DNA of 64,000 nt from an uncultured Clostridia bacterium (lineage in GTDB: Bacteria; Bacillota; Clostridia; Oscillospirales; Ruminococcaceae): the NCBI GenBank assembly GCA_945923775.1, contig CAMELR010000001.1, forward strand, positions 62,001 through 126,000, read 5' to 3'. Below, piece by piece: positions 3,366-62,336 of the stretch (position 1 is the stretch's first letter; every line of letters begins with the position of its first letter). Made by a program: the position numbers and the translations under genes. The notes under the pieces are model-generated. The model ran no database searches, was not told the DNA's origin, and was given only the letters and a program-made list of their open reading frames with translations.

Positions 3366-4544
3366 TTACTTGAACAGGTCTTTCAGCTTGTCGAAGAAGC
3401 TCGCGCGCCTTGAGTAGTTCTTGTCCTCGAGGGTGCTTTCGAACGCCTGGAGAGCGTCCTTCTGCTTCTTGCTGAGGTTGGTCGGGACCTCGATGGACAC
3501 CTTGACGAGCTGGTCTCCGCGGCCGCCGCGCTGTACGTGCTGAACGCCCTTGCCCTTTATCGTGAACACCTTTCCTGGCTGAGTTCCAGCCGGGATAGTG
3601 TACTTCATCGGGCCGTCGATGGTCGGGATATCTATTTCTGCGCCGAGCGTCGCCTGAGTGTAGGTCAGCGGAACTTCAATTATGATGTTGTCGCCGTCAC
3701 GCTCGAACACCTTGTCGGAAAGGACGGAAACGCGCACCTTGAGGTCGCCGCGGGGGCCGCCGTTAGCGCCTGCGTTGCCCTTGCCGGTAAGTCTGATGGT
3801 CTGACCGTCTGCGATACCAGCCGGGATATTTACCGAGATCTTGACCTTCTTCTGTGTTACGCCGTTGCCGGAGCAGGTCGGGCACGGAGTGTCGATGACC
3901 TTGCCCTTGCCGCCGCACTTCGTGCAGACCCTTGTGGACTGCATCGTGCCGAACATGGTCTGCTGGCGTACGTTTATCTTACCGGAACCGTGGCAGTCCG
4001 GGCAGGTCTTTGCCTGGGTGCCCGCCTTTGCGCCGGAGCCGTTGCAGTCCGGGCAGGTCTCAACGCGGTTGATCTCGATGTCGCGGACTATGCCCTTGCA
4101 GGCCTCCATGAACTTGATATTGAGCGATACGACGATATCAGAGCCTCTGCGCGGCGCGTTCGGGTTGGAACGCGAACCTCCGCTGAAGCCGCCGCCGAAA
4201 ATGTTGTCGAATATATCGCCGAGGTCTATGCCGTCGCCGCTGCTGAAGCCGCCTGTGAATCCGCCGAAACCGCCGAATCCTCCACCGCCGCCTGCGCCCT
4301 GACCCGCGCCGTAGCTCGGGTCTACTCCCGCGAAGCCGAACTGGTCGTATCTGGCCTTCTTCTCAGGGTCGGAAAGCACATCGTTAGCTTCGTTGACCTC
4401 CTTGAATTTAGCCTCTGCCTCGGGATCATCAGGATTAAGGTCGGGGTGGTATTTCTTCGCCATCTGACGGTACGCTTTCTTGATCTCAGCGTCGGTAGCG
4501 CCCTTTTTCAGGCCCAGCACCTCGTAATAGTCTTTTTTATCCAT
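3366..4544 (-). CDS. dnaJ: Chaperone DnaJ (Hsp40)
   Basis: Co-chaperone that stimulates DnaK ATPase and delivers unfolded clients. The 392-residue protein has the full type I layout: J domain with HPD near residues 33-35, a long Gly/Phe-rich linker (about 75-120), four CxxCxGxG zinc repeats ([32 protein letters not shown]) and the C-terminal substrate-binding domains. It is the last gene of the CIRCE-controlled heat-shock operon, separated from dnaK by a hairpin that may lower its expression. Confidence 0.98.
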
Positions 4545-4590
4545 AAGTAATCAATCCTTTGTATGAGGTTTGTATTTGGTATAAGGTACG

Positions 4591-4629
4591 AAAACACAAC
4601 GCCCTGCGGATTACCCTCAAGGCGCTGTG
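4591..4629 (-). terminator. Attenuating hairpin between dnaK and dnaJ
   Basis: On the minus strand an 11-bp stem (CACAGCGCCTT paired with AGGGCGTTGTG) is followed by UUUU. It lies just after the dnaK stop and could set dnaJ below dnaK; partial termination is inference. Confidence 0.55.
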
Positions 4630-4641
4630 CTACCTTAATGA

Positions 4642-6453
4642 TTATTCGTCGATGACTTCGCCGTCAACAGGGCCGTTGTCCTGCTGAGGAGCTGCGCCTT
4701 CAGCCGCACCGGCAGCTGCGCCCTGAGCCTGGTAGATCTTGCCTGCTACCTCGTAGAATTCCTTCTGGAGTTCGTCCTTGGCAGTCTTGATAGCCTCGAT
4801 GTCAGTACCCTTGAGGGCTTCCTTAAGGGCGTCGAGCTTGGGCTGTACCTTTGCCTTGTCGTCCTCTGTTACCTTGTCGCCGAAGTCTGTCATGGACTTC
4901 TCGATCTGGTAAACCATCTGGTCTGCCTCGTTGCGTACGTCTACCTCTTCCTTACGCTTCTTATCCTCTGCTGCGAACTGCTCAGCTTCCTTTACAGCCT
5001 TGTCGATATCGTCCTTGCTCATGTTGGTGGAAGCGGTGATGGAGATGTGCTGCTCCTTGCCGGTGCCGAGGTCCTTTGCGGTTACGTTAACGATACCGTT
5101 GGCATCGATATCGAAGGTAACCTCGATCTGCGGGATTCCACGGGGAGCCGGAGCGATGCCGTCCAGACGGAAGGTACCGATGGACTTGTTATCCTTTGCG
5201 AACTCACGCTCACCCTGGAGGACGTTGATATCAACGCTCGGCTGGTTATCGGAGTAGGTGGAGAATATCTGGCTCTTCTTGGTAGGAATGGTGGTGTTGC
5301 GCTCGATCATTCTTGTGCAAACGCCGCCTGCGGTCTCGATACCAAGGGACAGAGGAGTTACATCGAGCAGAAGCAGACCGGTAACTTCCTTGTTCAGTAC
5401 GCCGCCCTGGATAGAAGCGCCGATAGCAACGCACTCATCAGGGTTGATGCCCTTGAACGGCTCCTTGCCGAGGAAGTTCTTTACTGCGTCCTGAACTGCG
5501 GGGATTCTTGTGGAACCGCCGACCAGAAGGATCTTGTCGATCTCGTTCTTGTCAAGGCCGGAATCGGAAATCGCCTGCTTCAGCGGACCCATAGTGGACT
5601 CAACGAGGTCTGCGGTCAGTTCGTTGAACTTAGCTCTTGTGAGGGTTACGTTCAGGTGCTTAGGACCTGTAGCGTCCGCGGTGATATACGGGATATTTAC
5701 GTTTACGGAAGTGGAGTTGGAGAGCGCGATCTTTGCCTTCTCAGCCTCGTCCTTCAGTCTCTGCATTGCGAACTTATCATTGCTGAGGTCGATTCCGTCG
5801 GACTTCTTGAACTCGCCCTTGAGGTAATCAATTACTCTCTGGTCGAAGTCGTCGCCGCCGAGGTGGTTGTTACCAGCGGTCGCAAGAACCTCCTGAACGC
5901 CGTCGCCGATCTCAATTACGGATACATCGAACGTACCGCCGCCGAGGTCGTATACAACGATCTTCTGCTCCTCTTCCTTATCAATGCCGTAAGCGAGCGC
6001 TGCCGCCGTCGGCTCGTTGATGATTCTGTGTACCTTCAGACCTGCGATCTGACCTGCGTCCTTGGTAGCCTGACGCTGGCTGTCGGTGAAGTATGCCGGA
6101 ACTGTGATTACAGCGTCGGAAACCTTCTCGCCGAGGTATGCTTCAGCGTCGCCCTTCAGCTTCTGAAGGATCATCGCGGAGATCTCCTGAGGAGTGTACT
6201 TCTTGCCGTCGATGTCTACCTTGTAATCGCTGCCCATGTGTCTCTTGATGGAGATAACGGTCCTTTCAGGGTTTGTAACAGCCTGGTTCTTCGCAAGCTG
6301 ACCTACCAGACGCTCGCCGTCCTTAGTGAACGCTACAACGGAAGGTGTTGTTCTGGAGCCTTCGGAGTTGGTGATAACTACCGGCTCACCGCCTTCGATA
6401 ACGGATACGCAGGAATTTGTTGTACCTAAGTCAATACCAATGATCTTTCCCAT
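4642..6453 (-). CDS. dnaK: Chaperone DnaK (Hsp70)
   Basis: ATP-dependent Hsp70 chaperone. Starts [15 protein letters not shown] at the ATG at 6453, preceded by GGAGG; an in-frame ATG five codons earlier lies inside the ribosome site region and is less likely. The 603 residues show the phosphate loops GIDLGTTNS and [11 protein letters not shown], the adenosine motif [12 protein letters not shown], the Gram-positive-type shortened nucleotide domain, the substrate-binding domain and the lid ending [10 protein letters not shown]. Third gene of the hrcA-grpE-dnaK-dnaJ operon. Confidence 0.98.
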
Positions 6454-36309: not shown

Positions 36310-36346
36310 CAGAGCCTCCGAAGCTGTTCTGGAGGCTCTGTTTTTT
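36310..36346 (+). terminator. Terminator after patatin and cysteine-rich gene
   Basis: Stem CAGAGCCTCC/GGAGGCTCTG (36310-36340) followed by TTTTTT. Only its plus-side U-tract is good, yet it also marks the outer boundary of the phage module. Confidence 0.9.
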
Positions 36347-37664
36347 ATGGATTCGTTATGTCGTAGGATATCTTGAGATTGTGCTCCGAGGTCTTTTCAA
36401 GCGGCTCGCTGAGGTTGTTTATCGTCGCAAGATAGCCCATCGAAAGCCCGAGGTACGGATTCCACGAGCTGCTGTTGTTGCCCGCATTTGTCATGTTGAA
36501 GTAGCTCATAGAATAAAACGGCGGCTTGATATCGCAGGAGTACGCCGGGAGGTAGTCCTCGGGATTGTAGTACACATACATATTATCCGAGCTGTCGAAA
36601 ACCGCTATCTTTCTCACGCCTACCGAAGCGACAAGCATGTTCTCCCACATTGAAAAGAAGCTGGAATTCTGGCTGTAAATGTTGTAGGTTTTCAGCCAGC
36701 CGCCGCCGAGCGTGAACACCTGTATGTTGGTATAGCACATCACGTAGAATCTGTCGCCGACGACCGCGCAGGCATACACGGTCGCGCAGTCCTTTATGTT
36801 CTGGGTACCGGTTTTCACGACGGTCAGCGTATTGAGGTCAACCGCCGCGTAGTCGATAAGGCGGTCGCCGCTTCCCTGCTCTACGCGCGTGTTGGTGAAG
36901 AAGTACATCAGCTTCTTCGACGTATCCACGAACGCCTTGAGTATGTAATTCAGCGTGATGGGAAGCTCAACTGAAACCGAGGATTCAGCCGCAGGCCAGC
37001 CGGAGAGATTCCCCGGGTCGTTTATTCCAAGGTCGGCTGGGTTCGGCGACCTGTATTTCAGGAACGTGACCGTATTCCCGCTGTATGTGATATACAAATG
37101 GAGCCTGTCCTGAAAAGTGCCGATATACTGCCCCCTCGCGTGGAAAAACTGAGTGGTTTCGCTGAACTGCGCCGTAATATTCGACGGATCCGCGAACAGC
37201 TTACCTTCGTTGCCCATGTTATCAAACGCCGAGTTGCCGAAATACTGGCTTGTAAGCGCCACGGACTTTATAACTCCGTTCGCCTTGTCCGTTCCGAAAT
37301 CCCACGTGAAATGGTATCCGTCCGCCGTCGCGTAGCTCTCGTTAGTGTTGAGCGTTCCGCGGCGGACGTTGGCTCCGGCGTATTCTCCCCCGGCGGTCGC
37401 CACGGGAATGCAGTCTCCGCTGAGCATTACGTTTTCGCGGCTCTCGCTGAGTGTGTTCCCCAGGAGCATTATTCCGGAAAACAGCTTCGATGCCGGCATG
37501 ACGTTATTTATAAAATTGGGAAAATTAAAACTGTAGAGCATTGCGTACACCGGCGGGTTGAGTATCCTCTTTACCGCGTCGGTGACGAGATTGTGCTCCG
37601 TGACCTTCTTCACGACCCTGCCGCTCTTTGCGTCGGTCAGGGTCAGGGTCGCCTTTCCTTCCAT
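36345..37664 (-). CDS. Putative phage tail/receptor-type protein
   Basis: A 439-residue protein, last gene of the phage module. It begins MEGKATLTLTDAKSGRVVKKVTEHN, a pattern seen in phage tail-tip proteins, and continues with beta-rich, Asn/Ser/Tyr-rich sequence (repeated strands such as DRLHLYITYSGNTVTFLKY and DRFYVMCYTNIQVFTLGG) like a beta-propeller or host-binding tip. No signal peptide or transmembrane segment. The start overlaps the stop of the previous gene. Specific role is inference from position. Confidence 0.6.
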   Translation of the reverse strand: MEGKATLTLTDAKSGRVVKKVTEHNLVTDAVKRILNPPVYAMLYSFNFPNFINNVMPASKLFSGIMLLGNTLSESRENVMLSGDCIPVATAGGEYAGANVRRGTLNTNESYATADGYHFTWDFGTDKANGVIKSVALTSQYFGNSAFDNMGNEGKLFADPSNITAQFSETTQFFHARGQYIGTFQDRLHLYITYSGNTVTFLKYRSPNPADLGINDPGNLSGWPAAESSVSVELPITLNYILKAFVDTSKKLMYFFTNTRVEQGSGDRLIDYAAVDLNTLTVVKTGTQNIKDCATVYACAVVGDRFYVMCYTNIQVFTLGGGWLKTYNIYSQNSSFFSMWENMLVASVGVRKIAVFDSSDNMYVYYNPEDYLPAYSCDIKPPFYSMSYFNMTNAGNNSSSWNPYLGLSMGYLATINNLSEPLEKTSEHNLKISYDITNP

Positions 37665-39151
37665 TATGTGACCTCCTTATCCATCTGTGCCGCTATTTCC
37701 TTCAGCGTCAGTTTCGGCTCCACCATGCTGAGGTGCGGCAGCCTCTCGTAAAGGGTTATCTTATCCCTGGAGCTTCCCATGTTACCGTAGATCCCGTGTC
37801 CCACAAGCGTTGCGAGCATATCTCCGGCGGGGATATACGCTTCGCCGGATTTAGTCTGCACAGTGACGTAAATGCGGTTCTTCCCCGCCGGGAGCTTCTC
37901 CGCAAGATGGTACACATGCAGCAGCTCGAAATCCGTTCCGGAAAGCGTCTGTACTATCCTGCGCGTAATATCTTTCCCGTTGACGTTCACGCCGATGATA
38001 AGCTGATCCGCCGTGCTGTTCTTAACAGTGAAATTTACGTCGAGCTGCGCGAACATGTTCTCCTCGGATTCAAACTCGAAATCCGCGATTATCTGCGCCA
38101 GCGGCTTAACGTTTATCTGCCCGGAATTCTCGCGCTTGTAGTAGACCGCGTTTTTCTTGTGCAGCAGTTCTTCCAGGAGCTTCTCAAGGTCGCTGCTTTC
38201 CTCCTCGTAGACCTTGTTCTTCGAATAAAGCACCGCCGACAGCCCGCCGTCGTAGGTGTATTCTATCTCGCTTATCACGATACGGTACAGCAAGCTGCGG
38301 TCGAGGAAGTACAGCGAATCGCCGGACTCCAGGAACGGCATTCCCTGCATGCGAAGCTCCGCACCGTAGAACGAAAACGGCTTGTACATAACGTACATAT
38401 CCTCGGTAAGCTTCTGCGTCATGAGCGGGTTGTAGATCTCTATCGTGGAGATATCCGCGCCGCCGCCCGCGGTGAAATCCTCGTCCCCGGTGTGCGCCTT
38501 TACACAGGTCACAACCGAGCTTCCCATGTTTCGCTGGACCTCCCAGCAGTTCTTGTCCTGCAGCTCAAAATCTATCGGGGAATGATATTTCAGCGTGAGC
38601 CTGCCGGTGCGGTCGATTTTGGCGCAGGCGCGGTTTATTCCGGCGATGTAGCCGATGAGGTCCTGCGCCGTGCTGTTCTCAGGGAGCTTCTCAAGCTTTA
38701 TCGGCTGACCTGCTTCCGCGCATTCAACGCCAACGCTGCTGCATATATCCCGGAGAAGCACGTCGGAAGTGACCGGCAGCTCCCCCTTCCAGCCGTAGTT
38801 TACATCGAGGCTGTACATCTTGTCATAGGCGGTCACGCTGACATATTTCCCGCGGACGTACCTGCGGCTGATGTAGAACACGCCAAGCGGGCACCACTCC
38901 TCGCCGTCGAAGCTGATGTAAGCCCTGACCTCCGCGCCAGAGGAAAGCTCCCCGGAATATCTTGCGGTAAAATGCAGGCGGTTCGAGCAGGTGGTGCCTA
39001 CCGTGAACCAGTCGGGGTGTATCACATCGTCGAACGTCATATCGGTGATGCGGTCGTCGAGGAACTCCTCGCCCCCGACTGTGATCCTGCACCAGACCTC
39101 GCGGCCGTTATCCTGAGCCAGCTTCCTGAACTTTTCAGAAACCGTGATCAT
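37664..39151 (-). CDS. Phage tail-hub / baseplate-type protein
   Basis: A 495-residue protein similar in layout to siphovirus tail hub proteins: an N-terminal domain on the virion-building pattern VWCRITVGGEEFLDDRITDMTFDDV, the LGVFYISRRYVRGKYVSVTAYDKMY segment typical of YqbQ/Gp37-like hubs, then a C-terminal beta domain ending LKEIAAQMDKEVT. Overlaps or abuts both neighbours. In full phages this gene follows tail tube and tape measure genes, which are missing here. Confidence 0.7.
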   Translation of the reverse strand: MITVSEKFRKLAQDNGREVWCRITVGGEEFLDDRITDMTFDDVIHPDWFTVGTTCSNRLHFTARYSGELSSGAEVRAYISFDGEEWCPLGVFYISRRYVRGKYVSVTAYDKMYSLDVNYGWKGELPVTSDVLLRDICSSVGVECAEAGQPIKLEKLPENSTAQDLIGYIAGINRACAKIDRTGRLTLKYHSPIDFELQDKNCWEVQRNMGSSVVTCVKAHTGDEDFTAGGGADISTIEIYNPLMTQKLTEDMYVMYKPFSFYGAELRMQGMPFLESGDSLYFLDRSLLYRIVISEIEYTYDGGLSAVLYSKNKVYEEESSDLEKLLEELLHKKNAVYYKRENSGQINVKPLAQIIADFEFESEENMFAQLDVNFTVKNSTADQLIIGVNVNGKDITRRIVQTLSGTDFELLHVYHLAEKLPAGKNRIYVTVQTKSGEAYIPAGDMLATLVGHGIYGNMGSSRDKITLYERLPHLSMVEPKLTLKEIAAQMDKEVT

Positions 39152-39162
39152 GCGTACTCACC

Positions 39163-39525
39163 TCACTTCTGAAGCATGACGAGCTCCACGCCGCCGTACA
39201 TCGTCACGCCGTTTACTGTCGTAACAGTCGGTGCAGGCTCGTCGGAAATGTGGAACTCCCCGGTAACAAGCCCGCCGTCGGCTGACTCTCCCTCAGGCGC
39301 GGGGAACTTAACGGTCACGAATATCTCCTTAGTAAGGCTGCGGAGCTGCTCCAGCTCCTTGGAGGTCAGCAGCCCGAACCTCACCGTGAGCCTGTATTTC
39401 CGGTTCACAAGGTCTATCAGCATATCGCCCTGCGTATTGTAACGGATATCGGTGCGGCGAAGCTCCCGCTTGGCGGAAAGCTCCGTCACACTGCTGAATC
39501 CGGTGTCGTTTATCCAGATCGTCAT
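39163..39525 (-). CDS. Phage tail-associated protein
   Basis: A 120-residue protein (MTIWINDTGFSSVTELSAKRE) with LTVRFGLLTSKELEQLRSL and FHISDEPAPTVTTVNGVTMYGG; similar short proteins sit before the hub gene in siphovirus-like modules. The open frame reaches 39585 but the ATG at 39525 fits better with GGAGGTCAGATGAC upstream. Role unknown. Confidence 0.65.
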   Translation of the reverse strand: MTIWINDTGFSSVTELSAKRELRRTDIRYNTQGDMLIDLVNRKYRLTVRFGLLTSKELEQLRSLTKEIFVTVKFPAPEGESADGGLVTGEFHISDEPAPTVTTVNGVTMYGGVELVMLQK

Positions 39526-39547
39526 TCTGTCATCTGACCTCCTAGCT

Positions 39548-39682
39548 TTATCTGCGCGCCTTCTTGAGATTGAGCTGCCGCGCAAGCTCGCGGTTTCCAG
39601 CCCTGAGCAGCTTCGCCATGCGGTAGCTTTCCTCGCGCGAGCTGTCGGGCGCTGAGTTCTTCTTTGTTGTGGACTCCGCCAT
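39548..39682 (-). CDS. Small phage-module protein
   Basis: A 44-residue basic protein beginning MAESTTKKNSAPDSSREESY and ending in LNLKKARR. The ATG at 39682 has a strong GGAGG six bases before it, and it fits exactly between two coding genes of the module (14 bases after one stop). No family recognised; similar short basic proteins occur in phage head-tail regions. Confidence 0.6.
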   Translation of the reverse strand: MAESTTKKNSAPDSSREESYRMAKLLRAGNRELARQLNLKKARR

Positions 39683-39695
39683 ACTGCCCCTCCTT

Positions 39696-40037
39696 TCAGG
39701 TATGTTCCCCGCCGGTCTTGCGCGCCTTTACGCGCCAGTGGTGGGGATCCTCTCCGGCAAAAAGCTCCGCGGAAACTACCTCGAAGGTCTCGCCGCAGTA
39801 TTCCAGCGACTGACCCGCTGTGAATTCCGTACCCGAAGGCGAGGAATTCACGCAGTCGAAGTACATTACAAGCTCGGTGCAGTCGCGCGTGCGCCCGGTG
39901 GTGTAGTCGGTGATCGCGCTCACTCTTACGATACGCACGCTGTCCAGTGTCTCCCTCGAGTACCCTGAGCCATTCGGAGTAAGCAGCACAGCGCTGTCAG
40001 TGAGCAGCTCAGCGGGAATCGGCTTAACTCCGTTCAT
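39696..40037 (-). CDS. Putative head-tail joining protein
   Basis: A 113-residue protein (MNGVKPIPAELLTDSAVLLTP, later VMYFDCVNSSPSGTEFTAGQSLEYCGETFEVVSAE) matching in size and place the minor capsid or stopper proteins after the connector. It overlaps the connector gene by four bases. Assignment rests mainly on gene order. Confidence 0.6.
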   Translation of the reverse strand: MNGVKPIPAELLTDSAVLLTPNGSGYSRETLDSVRIVRVSAITDYTTGRTRDCTELVMYFDCVNSSPSGTEFTAGQSLEYCGETFEVVSAELFAGEDPHHWRVKARKTGGEHT

Positions 40038-40429
40038 TCCAGCACCTCCACTCCGGCGTACAGGCAGCCGGCGGCGCGAAGCAGCCTGATCACGTTGAGG
40101 CTATTTTCATCGTCCGAAGCCGTACTTCCGCTGTCGCTGCTCTCGCTTGACTGCGTGCTGTAGGAATAGTCGCCGATAGAGACCTTCTCCGAACCTGAGC
40201 GTGAACTTTTCTCGTAACGCTCGTTTTCCCTCAGCAGAATGTAGGTCTGAAAACCAGCCGCCTGCTTGACGAGCTCAGCGGGCTTCCCGCCTGCTTCTAT
40301 CGACTTTTCGGCCCTGCCCTCCGTGAGCGCGGAGATAATGTAGTCGCTTCTCTTGATGCAGCTCTCGACATCTCCGCCGCTGACCGCCGGAAATCCCATG
40401 CTGCTGTATTCACTTGCTGTAATAAGCAT
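40034..40429 (-). CDS. Putative head-tail connector protein
   Basis: A 131-residue protein starting MLITASEYSSMGFPAVSGGD at ATG 40429 (AAAGGAGGAAC site); the frame is open further up into the capsid gene. The helical first half with IKRSDYIISALTEGR and a Ser-rich loop resembles gp6/gp15-type connectors, which are the next gene after the capsid in many siphoviruses. Confidence 0.65.
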   Translation of the reverse strand: MLITASEYSSMGFPAVSGGDVESCIKRSDYIISALTEGRAEKSIEAGGKPAELVKQAAGFQTYILLRENERYEKSSRSGSEKVSIGDYSYSTQSSESSDSGSTASDDENSLNVIRLLRAAGCLYAGVEVLE

Positions 40430-40446
40430 AGTTCCTCCTTTCACAG

Positions 40447-40474
40447 AAAAGGGCGGCAGCCCCTGCCGCCGCCC
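40447..40474 (-). terminator. Terminator after capsid gene
   Basis: Minus-strand stem GGGCGGC/GCCGCCC (40451-40474) followed by TTTT, 14 bases after the capsid stop; probably partial, giving more capsid than connector. Confidence 0.75.
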
Positions 40475-40487
40475 TGTAGATCTCACA

Positions 40488-41378
40488 TCACACACCGAGT
40501 GACACTGCGATAACAGCCTTCTTGTTTTCGGGAACGAAAAGATCGTGATACTTGCGGTAGTCGATATCCCACGCGTCGGCAAACTGGTTCGCCTCGGGGG
40601 TTATGATCTTCACGTTGTCCGTCTTGGAGACTGCGATGGGGGCTGACTTGGGGCAGATGATCCAATTAATATCCTTAGCAGAACTCTTCGCCGCGAACCC
40701 ACCAGCGGAGTCAGTCTTGAAGTCATACTCAGACTTCATTCGAGCCGAAGGCACCGGGATCACCGGAACGCCGTTGATAGACTTAACGCTGAACTCAAGT
40801 TCGCCCTGCTTGAACTGAGTAGTTTCCACAGCGTAGGAGATCTCTCCGGAAAGCATGAGCTTGTCGTAAACAGGGCGGCTCATTACTATAACGACGTCGC
40901 CCTCGTCGCCGGTGATATCGCGTACTTCGCCGAGCTGCGCCAGAAGAGAGGACATCACGGTAGCCTTGTCCGGAGTGTAGGTATCCTTGATTCCAGCGGC
41001 AGCCGCCAGCTTTGAGTAGCGGTAAGCGTCGATCTCGGGAATCACCTGAGTGCGCTGGAACTCAGCCGCAACATTTGCCGCCGCCAGTCCGAATCCGCTC
41101 TCATCAACGTCGATCGCGTCGATACGGAAACGTCTGCCTCTGTCCTGGGTGAGCGCGAAGGTCTCGTAGGAATATGTAACAGCGCCGCCGGAGTAACCCG
41201 CGTCGCGGTCGTAGCTGCCTAGTCCCTGGAGAGACATCTTGGGCATCTTGATCTCGTTGCCGCCGTTGTAGATTACCTGGGAGGCGTTCTCCTCCATCCA
41301 ACCGGAAGTAGAACCCTCCAGCACCTGCTTGTCAAGCTCCTTCTGAAAAACCTGTGCATAAGTAATTGTGTTTGCCAT
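40488..41378 (-). CDS. Phage major capsid protein
   Basis: A 296-residue HK97-fold-type coat protein: MANTITYAQVFQKELDKQVLEGSTSGWM, YNGGNEIKMPKMSLQGLGSYDRDAG, RRFRIDAIDVDESGFGLAAANVAAEFQRTQVIPEIDAYR and a C-terminal SLGV tail are typical of Clostridium-type major capsid genes (P22/N4 gp56-like group). Strong AGGAGG before the ATG. A 383-base gap lies between it and the scaffold-like gene. Confidence 0.85.
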   Translation of the reverse strand: MANTITYAQVFQKELDKQVLEGSTSGWMEENASQVIYNGGNEIKMPKMSLQGLGSYDRDAGYSGGAVTYSYETFALTQDRGRRFRIDAIDVDESGFGLAAANVAAEFQRTQVIPEIDAYRYSKLAAAAGIKDTYTPDKATVMSSLLAQLGEVRDITGDEGDVVIVMSRPVYDKLMLSGEISYAVETTQFKQGELEFSVKSINGVPVIPVPSARMKSEYDFKTDSAGGFAAKSSAKDINWIICPKSAPIAVSKTDNVKIITPEANQFADAWDIDYRKYHDLFVPENKKAVIAVSLGV

Positions 41379-41761
41379 TATAGTAAATCCTCCTAAAAAA
41401 GTAGTTGATCCGTCCCCGGCGGAGCCAGCCCGCTGCCGCGCCGTAATTTTCCCGGCTGACCGCCTCGGTTGCGCCGCGCGGCCTTCCCCGGAGAACTGAT
41501 TGAAATTATATGTGAACCCGCCGTCCCACCCTCGGCATTACGCCGCGTTTTGATCCAGCCTGCGTCCTGCGGCTGTGAATTCCGGTAAGTCCGTGACCTT
41601 CCGCACCGCAAAGCTGTTGTGTTCTGTTGACCGCGCCTGCCCGGCTGTGTACTGCGGTAAGCCCGCTGCTTTCCGTCGGCTGCGGCATTCTCTTGATTTA
41701 CGAGCGTTGCCGACCGCTTGATACGCGCTGTCGGAACCCGCTCGTATTTAATCAGCGGCTG
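41379..41761 (-). ncRNA. 383-base non-coding, structured stretch between scaffold and capsid genes
   Basis: No convincing gene: open frames of 60-72 codons exist but lack good start sites. On the minus strand there is a nested hairpin (TACGAGCG 41738-41745 pairing with CGCTCGTA near 41699-41706, enclosing CCGAC/GTCGG) and a 50-base approximate direct repeat starting near 41670 and 41600. G+C-rich. It could be an RNA gene, a packaging-related site, or debris of a lost gene; which one is unknown. Confidence 0.35.
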
Positions 41762-42157
41762 TCACTTTCGCGCGAAAATGCTCCTGATAGCCGCGAATCC
41801 ATCGCTGGCGCCCCTGCTCTCCGCAGAGAACTGGGGAACGCTGCGCCTTACAAGCCTGAGGTGCGGATACTCGCGCAGGACCTCCGCCGCAGCGTCGTCA
41901 GGCTCCGTGCCGTCGGCAGACATTATACCCGCCGCAAGCTTAACGCCCTCGCAGAGCCTCTCTGGAGCTGCGCCGCCGGTCAGCAGCGCAAGTTTCAGCC
42001 TGAGTTCCATTATCTCTGCACGAAGCTGGTGAAGCTCCTCAGCCTGAGAGTCCTCCACAGGAGCCTCCTCAGACTCCTCCGGCTCCTGCACTGCTTCAGC
42101 GGGAATCTCCGCCGCTGTGCTCTCAAGCTCCTCCTGATTAGTGATCTCGTTATCCAT
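41762..42157 (-). CDS. Putative phage scaffolding protein
   Basis: A 131-residue acidic protein starting MDNEITNQEELESTAAEIPAE, with a Glu/Pro-rich N-terminus and a coiled coil (EELHQLRAEIMELRLKLALL), then a short basic C-terminus (FAAIRSIFARK), the standard appearance of phage scaffold proteins. ATG at 42157 follows AAGGAC and overlaps the portal stop by eight bases. Confidence 0.65.
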   Translation of the reverse strand: MDNEITNQEELESTAAEIPAEAVQEPEESEEAPVEDSQAEELHQLRAEIMELRLKLALLTGGAAPERLCEGVKLAAGIMSADGTEPDDAAAEVLREYPHLRLVRRSVPQFSAESRGASDGFAAIRSIFARK

Positions 42158-43532
42158 CGTTGTCCGTCCTTTCCATCGCCTGAGCCTCCTCAAGCGATAT
42201 TCCGTAGATCTGTGAAAGCGCACGCGCCTTGGAAATAAGCCCCGCGCTGTAAAGCTTCACAGCCCTGTCAGTTCTTGTGCCGTCGTCCTCTGCGGCACCG
42301 TCCGCGAATATCGCGGAAGCGCTCTCGCAGGCGTTGTCGGGAAGCTCCCCCGCCATCTTGCCAAGCCGGCAGATAAGCTCCACCATTCTGCTGAGCGCGT
42401 CGCCGATCCTGCGTCGGTAAAACGCCTGAGTGCGGTAAGTGCGGCTGTTTCTGCTGACTACCTCGGCGGCGGTCTTTATCGTGCCGTCCTTGAACGAGAG
42501 CGCTCCCTCGGAAAGCCCCGCCTGCATACACAGCAGGTCGAGAAGCTCACCGAGCGCCTGCACATGCTCCGTTACCCTGAGTTCCCCGGTGTTGTCGGTG
42601 ATCTTGAGTTCCTCGGCGTCAGACGTTGACATTGCCTGGAACACCTCGTCGTTCACATCGAAGTAGTGCTTCTTGTTGCCGGCGGCGTCCCATTCTCCGC
42701 GCACCGCGTAAGCCGGGACGATGATACGCTTCTTACCGAGGACGAACTCCCTTGAAAGGCTGTCGAACACGATGTCGATGCTCTTCAGAGTATCCTCCGC
42801 GCCGTCGAAAACCGAGCTTCCCAGCAGCGGACATTCGCCGGAGCTTACAGCCCGTCTTGAGCCTGCGCTGAGGTAAACGAACAGCGGAGCCGTCAGCCCC
42901 TTAACGCTGCTCTGACCGCTCAGCCCGGGAAGCACGGAGCTAATATCAGCCTTGCCGCCGTCCTCACGGAACAGCCGATTCTCGATAGTGAGCTGATCGC
43001 CGCTCAGTTCCTGGGATTCAGCGAGAATGTAGTTTCTCCCGCCGGAAACTATCCTTGAAGCGAACGCTCCGCCAGTGATTTCACGGGAGTTCCACGCTGT
43101 CGGCAGGAAGCAGTCCGCGGTAACGAGGTCGACCCTCACTCCGGGAACTCCGTCCGGCGTACTGTCGTCGTAGTAGACCTTTATCACACCGCCGCCCAGC
43201 GCAAAGACCTTCTCCAGAAACACCGGGAATCTCTCGGAAAACCGGCTCTCAGTGAGAACTCTGTTCACGAAGCTCTCGGTGTCGCTGTCGGAGTAGCACA
43301 TTGAAGTACCCTCCGTGAAACACAGCCTGGCGAGTTCCCCGCACAGCGCCCGTGCCGCTCCCAGTGAAGCTAGCTTTCTGGTGCCGCCCTGAATTCCTCC
43401 CCTGCGGGCGCAGCGCCAGTCGCCGCCGCCGTTGTAGATGTCCTCCCAGCGCTGGATATCGGCGTAGCAGCCCGCAATGTCAGCCGAACCGCTGTTTCTG
43501 CCGGAGCGCAGCAGCCAGTCCTTTAAGCCCAA
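42150..43532 (-). CDS. Phage portal protein
   Basis: A 460-residue portal-type protein (A118-like minor capsid/portal family): LARLCFTEGTSMCYSD, FALGGGVIKVYYDDS, LLGSSVFDGAEDTLKSIDIVFDSLSREFVLGKKRI and KDGTIKTAAEVVSRNSRTYRTQAFYRRRIGDALSRMVELI. Starts at a TTG (43532) with AAGGAGG upstream. First gene of the module; the normally preceding terminase genes are absent, since a terminator and a chemoreceptor gene lie upstream. Confidence 0.8.
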   Translation of the reverse strand: MGLKDWLLRSGRNSGSADIAGCYADIQRWEDIYNGGGDWRCARRGGIQGGTRKLASLGAARALCGELARLCFTEGTSMCYSDSDTESFVNRVLTESRFSERFPVFLEKVFALGGGVIKVYYDDSTPDGVPGVRVDLVTADCFLPTAWNSREITGGAFASRIVSGGRNYILAESQELSGDQLTIENRLFREDGGKADISSVLPGLSGQSSVKGLTAPLFVYLSAGSRRAVSSGECPLLGSSVFDGAEDTLKSIDIVFDSLSREFVLGKKRIIVPAYAVRGEWDAAGNKKHYFDVNDEVFQAMSTSDAEELKITDNTGELRVTEHVQALGELLDLLCMQAGLSEGALSFKDGTIKTAAEVVSRNSRTYRTQAFYRRRIGDALSRMVELICRLGKMAGELPDNACESASAIFADGAAEDDGTRTDRAVKLYSAGLISKARALSQIYGISLEEAQAMERTDNDG

Positions 43533-43616
43533 ATCACATTCCTCCTTGATATGTATTTACCGGAAGTTCCAGTCTTTTTTCCTGTTCCTTCCCGCAATAT
43601 GATAATACCCCCTGCG

Positions 43617-43634
43617 TTACTGCAATTTACTGCA
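43617..43634. repeat. Tandem TTACTGCA direct repeat
   Basis: Two copies of TTACTGCA ten bases apart, about one helical turn, between a terminator and the portal gene. The arrangement suits an operator for the module, but no regulator gene is present. Confidence 0.4.
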
Positions 43635-43638
43635 AAAC

Positions 43639-43661
43639 AAAAAAACCGGAAAAATTCCGGC
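43639..43661 (-). terminator. Terminator facing the phage module
   Basis: Minus-strand stem CCGGAA/TTCCGG (43646-43660) followed by seven U. It stops transcripts from the chemoreceptor side before the portal gene. Confidence 0.7.
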
Positions 43662-43753
43662 TTAAACTGAATAAACTATTTATAAGGATAAATAACGTCA
43701 CTCACAGGAAATAATGCAGACGTGATATCTCACGCTAAGAAGTTCCGCCGCAT

Positions 43754-43798: not shown

Positions 43799-45829
43799 TT
43801 ACCTGAGCCTGAACCTGCTGACAAGCTCCTTGAGCGTTTCAGCCTGCCCCGAAAGCTCCTCGGAGGAAGCCGCGCTCTGCTCTGCTGTAGCGGAATTCGA
43901 CTGAACGACAGCGGATATCTTCCCGATGTCAGAGTGAATATTCTCCACCATTTCGTTCTGGCTCCTGCAGGATTCGGTGATGCTTCCAACTATCTCCTTG
44001 ACCGATTCGGTGTACTCGTTGAGCGTCTTTATTGCCTCTGCGGTCTGCGCGGTGATCTCTGCGCCGTTGTTTGCCGCCTTCACGGAGCTTTCAATGAGCA
44101 TGGTAGTATTGCCCACTGCTTCCGCAGACTTCCCAGCAAGCGTGCGCACTTCGTCCGCAACCACCGCGAAGCCCTTTCCAGCCGCGCCGGCGCGGGCGGC
44201 CTCGATAGCCGCGTTAAGCGCGAGAATATTCGTCTGGAAAGCGATATCCTCGATTGCCCCGATGATGTTGCTGATTTTTCCGGAGGTCTCGTTGATGTTG
44301 TTCATTGCTTCGGTAAGCGACGCCATCTTTACATTTACCCCGTCAAGGAACTGCGCGGTTTTATCCATGAGTTCCCGGGCGTTCTCACACTTTTCGGAGT
44401 TATGCTGAACCTGCTTCTCTATGTTGGAGATATTCTCCGCAAGTTTCTCAACGGAAGCGCTCTGTTCAACAGAGCCCTGCGAGAGTACCTGAGCGCCGGC
44501 CGCGACCTGCTCCGAGCCGGAGCTTACATCGTCCGCCGACTTGTAGATATCGGAGATGACACCGGAAAGCTTGTCCCTGATAGTGGCAAGGCTTCCCGCA
44601 AGCTCCGAGAAATCACCAGTGTAGTACTGGCTGTTCTGATCAACGTCCACCGCGAGGTTCTCGTTTGCAAGCTCGCTGAGTATGCGTCCTACGTCCGCGG
44701 TGGCGTTGCGGAGCGACTCGCTCATATCCACGATTGCAGTAGCGATGGTGCCGACCTCGTCGGGGCTTTTCATAAGGTCGCGAACCTCGTCCGCTGACTT
44801 GAGGTCGATGTTCTCCAGCTTCTGAGCCGCCTTCTCCACGCGCTTGAGCGGGAGCATGAGGTTATGTACCACGAGATATACCCAAAGGGTAAGCACCGCC
44901 ATGCATATAATGCTGACCACAATAAGCTGAATTCTCATAGATACCGCAGAATCCATAACCTCAGATGAGCTGTCGGAAATGATGAACACCCAGTCCTAAT
45001 CGTTCATGTATGTGTAAGCCGCAACGCGGTTTCCGCCGTCGCTGTAAGTAAACGAATCCGTGACCATCTCACCGGAATTCTTCAGGCTGCCGATAAGATC
45101 AATGATGTATTGTTCTTCAGCAATGGTGGCTACCTTATCCTTATTCGGGTGGAAGATGTACTCGCCGGTGCCGACATTTACAAGATAATAATCCGAATTT
45201 TCAAATCCATTCATCGGAAGCTCATTTAGCTTTGACGCAAGACCATCCGTATAAATCCCGATTCCGCCGAGACCGATAGGGCTGCCATTTTCATCAAAGA
45301 CTGCCCGGTACATTGAAATGATCTGTTTGCCTGAAGCCGGCGAGATGATTATACCCGCATTGTACACTCCGTCAGCGGAAAGCAGCGCTTGATTAAGCTG
45401 ATCACACTTATCCTTGTCGGGACGCGTGACCTTACCTACAACCTGCGCCGAAGTGTGGGCGCGCACGGTCGTATCCCAGGAACTTACGTAAATTCCCTCA
45501 AGGCTGTCTATATCCTTGCTGTAGTCCTCAGTATACTTCTGCGCTGCTGCAATCGCTGCAGTGTCGTCAGGATTTTCAAGAATGTCTTTGATCTGCTGAG
45601 CCTTCAGATAATCTGTCAGAGTGCCTTCAGTCGAATCGATATAGGATTCGATAAGCTCCACCCTGTCCCTGGCGGCGGTTTTCATATTGTTGACCACATC
45701 GTTATAAGACGCCGTTGAAATAGAGTGATTTATCAGCAGGAACAAACCCGCAAACACAATCAGCTGAATCACGAACAATGTTACTGTGATCCTGAAATCC
45801 AGACCAAACCTTCTCACTTGCTTTTTCAT
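43799..45829 (-). pseudogene. Methyl-accepting chemotaxis protein interrupted by in-frame TAG
   Basis: Reading the minus strand as one frame gives a complete chemoreceptor: helix 1 (about 14-34), an extracellular dCache-like sensor domain, helix 2, HAMP and a signalling domain with NTTMLIESS and the hairpin tip [42 protein letters not shown] single TAG at 44996-44998 lies between YTYMND and [10 protein letters not shown], near the end of the sensor domain, without any frameshift. The two halves cannot work apart. So it is a recent nonsense allele, a sequencing error, or a case of amber read-through. Confidence 0.88.
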
Positions 45830-61283: not shown

Positions 61284-62336
61284 TTACATAATACGTTTTG
61301 CCATGATATCCGGGTTGTAAGCATAGTCTACAGCGGTCTTAGCGCTGATCCTGCCCTCGCGGAAAAGCTTGATAATACAGCTATCCATAGTCTGCATGCC
61401 GCCTGCGGACTGGAGTATCGTGTCGATCTGGTGCGTCTTTTCGTCCCTGATGAGGGTGCGGACCGCGCTGTTTGTGGTCATTATCTCAAACGCCGGAATG
61501 AGACCGCCGTCCACAGAAGGCAGTAACTGCTGACAAACCACGGCGTTAAGCACCATCGAGAGCTGCACGCGTATCTGGTGCTGCTGATTTATCGGGAACA
61601 CGTCGATTATGCGGTCAATCGTATTCGCGGCGCCGAGCGTATGCAGAGTCGAAAGCACGAGCTGACCGGTCTCAGCGGCGGTCATAGCAACGCTGATGGT
61701 CTCATAGTCGCGCATTTCTCCGAGCAGGATAACGTCCGGGGACTGCCTGAGCGCCGCACGGAGCGCGTCGATGTAGCTGTCTGTATCAATATTTATCTCG
61801 CGCTGGCTGACAATGCAGCGATTGTGCTTGTGAAGGAACTCGATAGGATCCTCTATCGTTATTATATGCCCGCTGCGGCTTTGGTTGATACGGTCGAGAA
61901 TGCACGAAAGCGTAGTGGACTTGCCGCTGCTTGCCACACCGGTTATGAGAACTATGCCGCTCTTGCATTCGCTGAGCTGCATGACCTGCTCCGGAATACC
62001 GAGCTTCGCCGGGTCGGGAAGGTCGAACGGAACATACCTCAGCACAGCCGAAAACGACCCTCTCTGCTTGTAGATGTTAACACGGAATCGTCCCACCCCG
62101 GCAACGGAAAGCGAAAAATCCTCCTCACGCTCAGGGAGCTGCTCCTCGGTGATATCCCTCTTTGCAAGGTGGAATATCTGAAGCACCAGATTCTTGGTGT
62201 CCTCCGGGGACAGCGCGTCGCCGTCCATCTCGTACATTCTGCCGTTCGCCTTGAAGCTCAGAACCGCGCCGCAGACGATAAAAATATCCGCGGCCTGATT
62301 CTCTGCTGCCTTTTTCAGTATATCCAGAATATCCAT
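61284..62336 (-). CDS. pilT: PilT-type retraction ATPase
   Basis: Hexameric ATPase that powers pilus retraction and twitching. The 350 residues hold an N-terminal PAS-like domain, Walker A GVASSGKSTT (near residue 130), the Asp box ITIEDPIEFL, Walker B VILLGEMRD with its catalytic Glu and the His box TLHTLGA. PilT usually lies next to pilB and pilC; here the neighbours are pilus-like membrane proteins. ATG at 62336 has AAAAGGAG. Confidence 0.92.
   Translation of the reverse strand: MDILDILKKAAENQAADIFIVCGAVLSFKANGRMYEMDGDALSPEDTKNLVLQIFHLAKRDITEEQLPEREEDFSLSVAGVGRFRVNIYKQRGSFSAVLRYVPFDLPDPAKLGIPEQVMQLSECKSGIVLITGVASSGKSTTLSCILDRINQSRSGHIITIEDPIEFLHKHNRCIVSQREINIDTDSYIDALRAALRQSPDVILLGEMRDYETISVAMTAAETGQLVLSTLHTLGAANTIDRIIDVFPINQQHQIRVQLSMVLNAVVCQQLLPSVDGGLIPAFEIMTTNSAVRTLIRDEKTHQIDTILQSAGGMQTMDSCIIKLFREGRISAKTAVDYAYNPDIMAKRIM

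Follow-up and report, generated by a model that had tools for sequence, protein, structure and literature searches.

We analysed a 64,000-nucleotide stretch (the window; positions 62,001 to 126,000 of contig CAMELR010000001.1, assembly GCA_945923775.1) of an uncultured Clostridia bacterium of the Ruminococcaceae, in which nine open phage-type genes form one block on the minus strand (36345-43532). This operon runs from a portal protein through scaffold-like, capsid and head-tail adaptor proteins to tail-hub-like and tip-like proteins. The original prediction, made from the sequence alone, described such a one-direction block of open genes, bounded by a terminator and a TTACTGCA repeat on one side and a terminator on the other. 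Its outline was borne out: the nine minus-strand genes are open, nearly all with family matches, and terminator-like structures lie at both ends (Table 1). The repeat, at 43617 and 43627, proved to be the direct repeat of the portal promoter.

Beside the nine-gene block there is no gene for a terminase, tail tube, tape measure, lysis protein or integrase. When the large terminase protein (TerL), the tail tube and one integrase were used as queries against the whole window, none gave a match at 1e-4. No integrase, repressor or replication gene was seen among the open reading frames (ORFs) of 29-50 kb, so the locus does not have the make-up of a functional prophage. The earlier description of the module as isolated, without terminase or lysis genes, is correct locally. 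It does not hold genome-wide, as the genome has, at other loci and behind the same promoter, a terminase pair, a lysis cassette and a fibre gene. Below, G, L and C labels denote genomes, genomic loci and contigs, with G000 the window's own genome.

Conservation and inheritance of the operon

All orthologue counts refer to a genus set of 43 genomes, 27 of them good. A portal orthologue of 58-82% identity occurs in 38 of the 43, including 26 of the 27 good ones, and is in pieces in G002; it was not found in G006, G010, G018, G026 and G028. The last of these has a 27% prophage-type match that was not counted (with it, 27 of 27 good genomes). Neighbourhoods of TerL, tail tube and the host gene phoH were counted in a relative set of 51 capsid-matched loci. 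Their source records bear the titles Oscillospiraceae, Ruminococcaceae, Ruminiclostridium, Clostridiales or Clostridia; in several, the title includes a deer, water-deer or rabbit-like name. phoH lies within 22 of the 51; many others end too early or belong to other genera, and three (L036, L042, L064) reach far enough yet lack it.

The operon genes are under purifying selection. We estimated ratios of nonsynonymous to synonymous substitution rates (dN/dS; NG86) on two sets: the window together with the three relatives nearest to it, and close pairs, at most seven for each gene and including one (L069-L070) from another genus. Ratios over all genes lie between 0.01 and 0.33: 0.01-0.085 for the capsid, 0.04-0.145 for the portal, 0.04-0.27 for the adaptor, phrog_1194 protein and hub, 0.01-0.33 for the scaffold, 0.07-0.32 for Minor_capsid_1 and 0.16-0.31 for the tip. 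dS was near saturation in the window group and 0.08-1.15 in the close pairs, and five infinite comparisons were dropped.

Protein distances point to vertical inheritance and co-diversification with the host. Portal distances correlate with those of TerL (r = 0.78, 19 genomes) and of phoH (r = 0.93, 15 genomes), and TerL distances with those of phoH (r = 0.81, 9 genomes; Mantel p = 0.0001 each). phoH, the one host gene used, neighbours the operon in many genomes; as a host marker it is therefore of limited value for the portal and better suited to TerL. Together, genus-wide presence, low dN/dS and distances that track phoH support the earlier proposal of a domesticated particle kept intact by selection. 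Six exact peptide patterns of the portal, which would catch near relatives only, had no match in IMG/VR, and the best phage-record capsid among the matches listed is 47.9% identical to the window capsid.

A separate terminase locus

A TerL orthologue (query L066; 58-66% identity) is present in 36 of the 43 genomes, whole in 34 and in two pieces in 2, and in 24 of the 27 good ones. It was not found in G002, G007, G039 and G041; G018, G026 and G028 have neither portal nor TerL. Among the 34 genomes with both genes, the two lie on different contigs in 33 and on one contig, about 69 kb apart, in G042. In six TerL regions that were read (L134, L136-L139, L142), TerL stands alone or with a short gene resembling that of the small terminase (TerS), amid non-phage genes.

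The short protein that precedes TerL is conserved both in this layout and in the contiguous clusters of related genera described below, the copies of this genome and of L066 being 48% identical across 54 residues. From its place before TerL, it is probably the small terminase. Neither of these two copies has a family match pointing to DNA binding. A TerS-like reading was obtained for 31 of 32 loci; that of L129 seems to be in the wrong frame, and L127 has none. Eight prophage loci of the genus have a different protein, of 152-164 residues, at the TerS place (by place only). In L289 (G036:C12), a terminase gene and a lysis cassette lie about 5 kb apart.

A promoter shared by dispersed loci

The terminase and head loci carry the same promoter architecture. 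The complement of the window repeat, TGCAGTAA, occurs once in the 20-kb terminase region, right before TerS, and a 15-base form, TTGCAGTAANTTGCA, is exact at just two sites in the genome, the portal promoter and the TerS promoter. From portal loci we drew a composite motif, TTGCAGT-N3-TTGCAGT-N11-TATnAT, and looked for it locus by locus, allowing at most 5 mismatches in 19 positions. The test covered loci from 30 of the 38 portal genomes and 20 of the 36 TerL genomes, and 30 loci each for holin and fibre, of which one each was dropped. The motif lies upstream of the portal in 30/30 loci, TerL in 19/20, holin in 13/29 and fibre in 14/29. In the same order, shuffled controls gave 1/600, 1/400, 2/580 and 2/580, downstream controls 0/30, 3/20, 0/29 and 0/28, and reverse-strand controls 1/30, 0/20, 0/29 and 0/29. 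Not every holin or fibre locus is expected to carry the box, because the matches include prophage copies.

At 3 mismatches or fewer, the motif has 242 sites in the 43 genus genomes and the reversed pattern 28 (5.6 versus 0.65 per genome); in 195 genomes of other genera the figures are 214 and 85. G018, without an orthologous portal or TerL, has zero sites; G028 has 11 sites yet neither gene, which is unexplained. The box is predicted to be an activator site, because the second repeat, too close to the -10-like part, does not have the spacing of an ordinary -35 element. Further splitting of the operon is seen in other genomes: the capsid-to-hub genes of G008 lie off the portal's contig with a box of their own, in G005 a capsid piece on a separate contig is preceded by a box, and in G007 an additional box separates portal from capsid.

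Lysis and fibre genes extend the set. In this genome a box precedes a holin gene followed by an Amidase_2 endolysin gene (1.7e-11), and a tandem box directly precedes a tail fibre gene. The genome thus has four loci: head-tip on C1, TerS-TerL on C23, lysis on C19 and fibre on C4. The lysis cassette is read as a small membrane protein, a holin and an endolysin. In L215 the gene of a small protein follows the box, with those of a holin-like protein and a glycosyl hydrolase 25 lysozyme after it, and L193 and L338 are similar. Clustering the genes of 42 regions in search of a third single conserved locus gave no cluster in more than 4 regions; the lysis and fibre loci came to light from the genes next to boxes. 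At many further box loci the neighbouring genes are different or unclear. A conserved glycosyltransferase-like gene lies behind the same promoter in three species (L205, L221, L325), of which two have another box, on the opposite strand.

Such breadth raises the question of what the promoter serves. It could belong to a general host stress response that mobile elements also use, leaving the loci only loosely co-regulated, as the box also stands before replication genes, the glycosyltransferase, other genes and an integrase-bearing region. Set against this is that the box is found at packaging, head, lysis and fibre genes alike, in this genome included. We regard the stress-response account as a sizeable minority possibility. 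It would change how the regulon is read rather than the particle, and is compatible with the gene transfer agent (GTA)-like system proposed below.

Replication initiators are among the genes behind the box. All 12 that we tested, L186 and L198 among them, chosen for likeness and not at random, match replication-initiation or DnaD-like families, and L200, L329 and L332 carry a DnaC/IstB-like gene besides the initiator. The initiators of L186 and L320 lie in this genome, and L320 also has a phage-type integrase (1e-28). We suggest tentatively, and with more doubt than confidence, that through this promoter on packaging and replication loci the GTA control circuit also drives DNA replication. DnaD-like and O-like initiator regions, or integrated elements with an acquired promoter, would then be amplified just as packaging begins and be over-represented in particles, the elements hitch-hiking on the host GTA. 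L320 also has a one-mismatch box before an AAA_15/OLD-like ATPase gene (4060-5921, G000:C5), in the same region as its box-driven replication gene and integrase. A mobilisation or partition reading of ORFs in L199, L322 and L324 had no Pfam support and was dropped; only the L320 integrase was supported.

Contiguous clusters and prophages

TerL adjoins the head genes in 9 of the 51 capsid loci (L047, L054, L057, L066, L068-L070, L074, L077). A tail tube gene is found in 10: seven of these nine, and L061, L065 and L079, which lie on cut contigs. Neither gene is seen in the other 39 within the available sequence. TerL and tube are open in every locus matched, and L066 has a major tail protein match and a short tape-measure-like protein (233 residues; phrog_1535 3e-5).

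These contiguous clusters of related genera have TerL, portal and capsid proteins orthologous to those described here, mostly hub and tip proteins too, and a TerS-like protein in seven of seven checked. They differ in being single clusters, with a tail tube in all but L054, which has a holin after the tip, and L057, which is short. No TTGCAGT box was found in them at 3 mismatches or fewer. By the original prediction's own criterion, terminase or tape measure genes in the same island of other strains would count against it; related genera do have TerL and tail tube in one cluster. Because the genus has its split genes open and conserved, we take the contiguous TerS-to-tip cluster of those genera to be the ancestral arrangement.

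The separate terminase and head loci are phylogenetically matched. In a TerL tree of 36 rows, including 12 of the genus's 36 TerLs, the lone TerLs of the genus form one clade (98) that joins seven contiguous-cluster rows and L054 at 100, and 11 prophage TerLs of the same genus stand apart from this group. A capsid tree of 52 rows repeats the grouping of lone and contiguous loci with support 92. Both trees were made by a quick method with SH-aLRT support only, and some branches are long.

These data bear on two other options, a decaying prophage remnant and a helper-dependent phage satellite, either of which would account for a window with only part of a phage gene set. Neither option fits the same genes in 38 of 43 species-level genomes, with low dN/dS and distances that track phoH. 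Nor does either fit a terminase clade distinct from the prophages of the genus, or a promoter motif that is absent at up to 4 mismatches from twelve prophage loci (144.8 kb), with two occurrences at 5. On conservation, dN/dS, phoH-tracking distances, trees and the prophage promoter scan we reject both as very improbable.

Prophages of the genus have related capsids all the same. In L360-L368, capsids are 47-60% identical to the window's (where the gene lies within the region), but identity is just some 23-25% for portals and some 44-46% for TerLs (query L066), and their head genes are of mosaic descent. Capsid identity alone therefore cannot separate the groups, and the view that relatives at 40% capsid identity or less were the sole prophage type was dropped once these capsids were found. 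In the wider family, 87 of 298 sampled genomes have capsid matches. Among 20 of these family regions, as far as listed, a lone-cluster look is seen in L340-L343 (g42), L348-L349 (g108) and L353-L354 (g100). The g108 and g100 pairs have the same flanking genes within each pair; other family regions fetched are prophage-like or unclear. The lone clusters of g42, g108 and g100 are candidates for more domesticated particles.

Features and surroundings of the operon

Table 1. Coordinates of the operon, its control elements and the associated loci of the same genome. Positions without a contig label are those of the window.
Feature	Position	Strand	Evidence or remark
Portal protein (SPP1/A118-like)	42150..43532	-	PF05133 6e-17, phrog_533 5e-98
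Scaffold-like protein	41762..42157	-	start chosen ATG 42157; phrog_2303 7e-4 (weak); place conserved
Major capsid protein	40488..41378	-	phrog_422 1.6e-103
Head-tail adaptor	40034..40432	-	start chosen ATG 40432; phrog_541 2e-12
Minor_capsid_1-type protein	39696..40037	-	family match 8e-6
Small basic protein, 44 residues	39548..39682	-	ORF reading; look-alike in same position in L190
phrog_1194 protein, probably tail-associated	39163..39525	-	start chosen ATG 39525; 7e-11
Tail-hub-like protein	37664..39151	-	phrog_6616 3e-34
Tip-like protein	36345..37664	-	phrog_19291 3e-30 (function unknown in PHROGs)
Promoter box before portal operon	43602..43635	-	TTGCAGT-N3-TTGCAGT-N11-TATTAT, no mismatch
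Terminator-like hairpin immediately upstream of promoter	43643..43663	-	hairpin scan
Terminator-like stem past operon end	36310..36346	.	10-pair GC stem, 11-base loop, T6; T-run on plus strand
TerL of this genome	G000:C23:36761-37990		terminase ATPase and nuclease domain matches
Holin of this genome	C19:4960-5148		297 bases after box; phrog_297 2e-4
Tandem box of this genome	C4:96803-96827		among 36 two-mismatch sites
Fibre gene of this genome	C4:96897-97835		directly after tandem box; phrog_4492 tail fibre 5e-24

The hairpin scan gave 12 terminator-like sites against 7.3 +/- 3.0 in shuffles. The stem past the operon end was read directly, its loop being longer than the scan permits. A strong terminator-like hairpin also lies inside the operon, directly 3' of the capsid gene (40450-40475, minus strand). 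Rfam gave no match on 35-47 kb.

The ORFs flanking the operon (29-50 kb) we take to be ordinary chromosomal genes, most of them named from their sequences; family search identified a patatin and a chemoreceptor. The chemoreceptor gene beside the operon (43799-45829, minus strand) consists of two same-frame ORFs split by a single in-frame stop, either a real break or an assembly error.

A proposed multi-locus system

We consider it likely that the operon serves as head-and-tip locus in a domesticated, short-tailed, multi-locus GTA-like system with at least four co-regulated loci. In the scheme that we infer from these genes, which spans assembly, host-DNA packaging, a short tail, lysis timing, an activator and transfer, a regulator would switch on all loci through one promoter with two TTGCAGT repeats, under some host signal. 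Heads would assemble on the portal. TerL and the short TerS-like protein, in which no DNA-binding domain is seen, would fill them with host DNA from no specific start site. The tail would be a stub made of adaptor, hub, tip and fibre, a form proposed because tail tube and tape measure were not found: in this genome the tube query matched only the C8 prophage (40%), and the tape measure query, run without a positive control, had no match. Lysis would free the particles, which would bind related cells. With the loci on separate contigs, a single headful would be unlikely to cover them all.

Several points weigh against this scheme. Particles, packaged DNA and transfer are predictions from the genes. 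Some genomes lack one or both halves, and completeness is 92% for G007, 97% for G041 and 98% for G028. The portal motif score is partly circular, because the composite motif was taken from portal loci; the motif also precedes unrelated genes, and outside the genus it has a background of 1.1 sites per genome, compared with 0.4 for the reversed pattern. Tube and tape measure were searched in this genome, and the tube also in the fetched loci; a diverged copy could lie elsewhere.

Head, tip, fibre and lysis genes would equally suit a conserved headed particle that kills related strains, as reported for PBSX, with host DNA perhaps packaged and not delivered. PMC12946183 leaves the same question open for FpGTA, the GTA of Faecalibacterium prausnitzii. 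Family searches found no contractile sheath or long-tail gene among the operon's genes, however, and the terminase, needless for a pure killer, is kept with selection-like conservation. We think a killer particle unlikely.

If the GTA-like system is the right reading, a short promoter signature ties together the dispersed loci of a Gram-positive system across a genus, and since the signature links the loci, the regulon can be listed and tested. The case would also show how a contiguous phage cluster can come apart into several loci under host control, the tail tube apparently being lost on the way. To our knowledge, few GTAs are known outside Alphaproteobacteria.

Relation to known systems

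PMC9662315 lists as GTA features tailed-phage proteins, mostly random host DNA, endogenization often over multiple loci, a genome not fully packageable in its own particles, mostly vertical inheritance and DNA delivery. The locus described here has proteins that appear, from their family matches, to derive from tailed phages, a layout over several loci and signs of vertical inheritance. For random packaging, the TerS-like protein with no DNA-binding family match is at most an indirect hint. Dispersed loci make GTAs hard to find by sequence (PMC11841831, in part). With RcGTA, BaGTA and other GTAs, the proposed system shares dispersed loci, vertical inheritance and phage-derived head and packaging proteins, and with classified GTAs a small terminase without a detectable DNA-binding domain (PMC9662315, PMC11841831). 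It differs from RcGTA and BaGTA in bacterial phylum, and in that tail tube and tape measure were not found here. BaGTA production is tied to run-off replication; in the portions of these two papers that we consulted, we found no description of a common promoter linking a GTA to many replication genes (PMC9662315, PMC11841831).

GTA-like packaging has been reported in Ruminococcaceae and Oscillospiraceae, together with a description of FpGTA (PMC12946183, in part). This appears to be the closest published system, likened by description and not by sequence, and we found nothing nearer to a split system of such kind, or to its promoter, in the open-licence literature. The likeness lies in a host family of related gut bacteria, a TerS that lacks an obvious DNA-binding domain, the presence of TerL, portal, scaffold and capsid, a second operon that carries structural and lysis genes, heads that look tailless and are probably short-tailed, and an operon without replication genes. 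The word "promoter" does not occur in the text of the FpGTA paper (PMC12946183). FpGTA differs in arrangement, with terminase and head genes on operon I and fibre, holin and endolysin on operon II, whereas here four separate loci have one promoter architecture, which replication initiators share.

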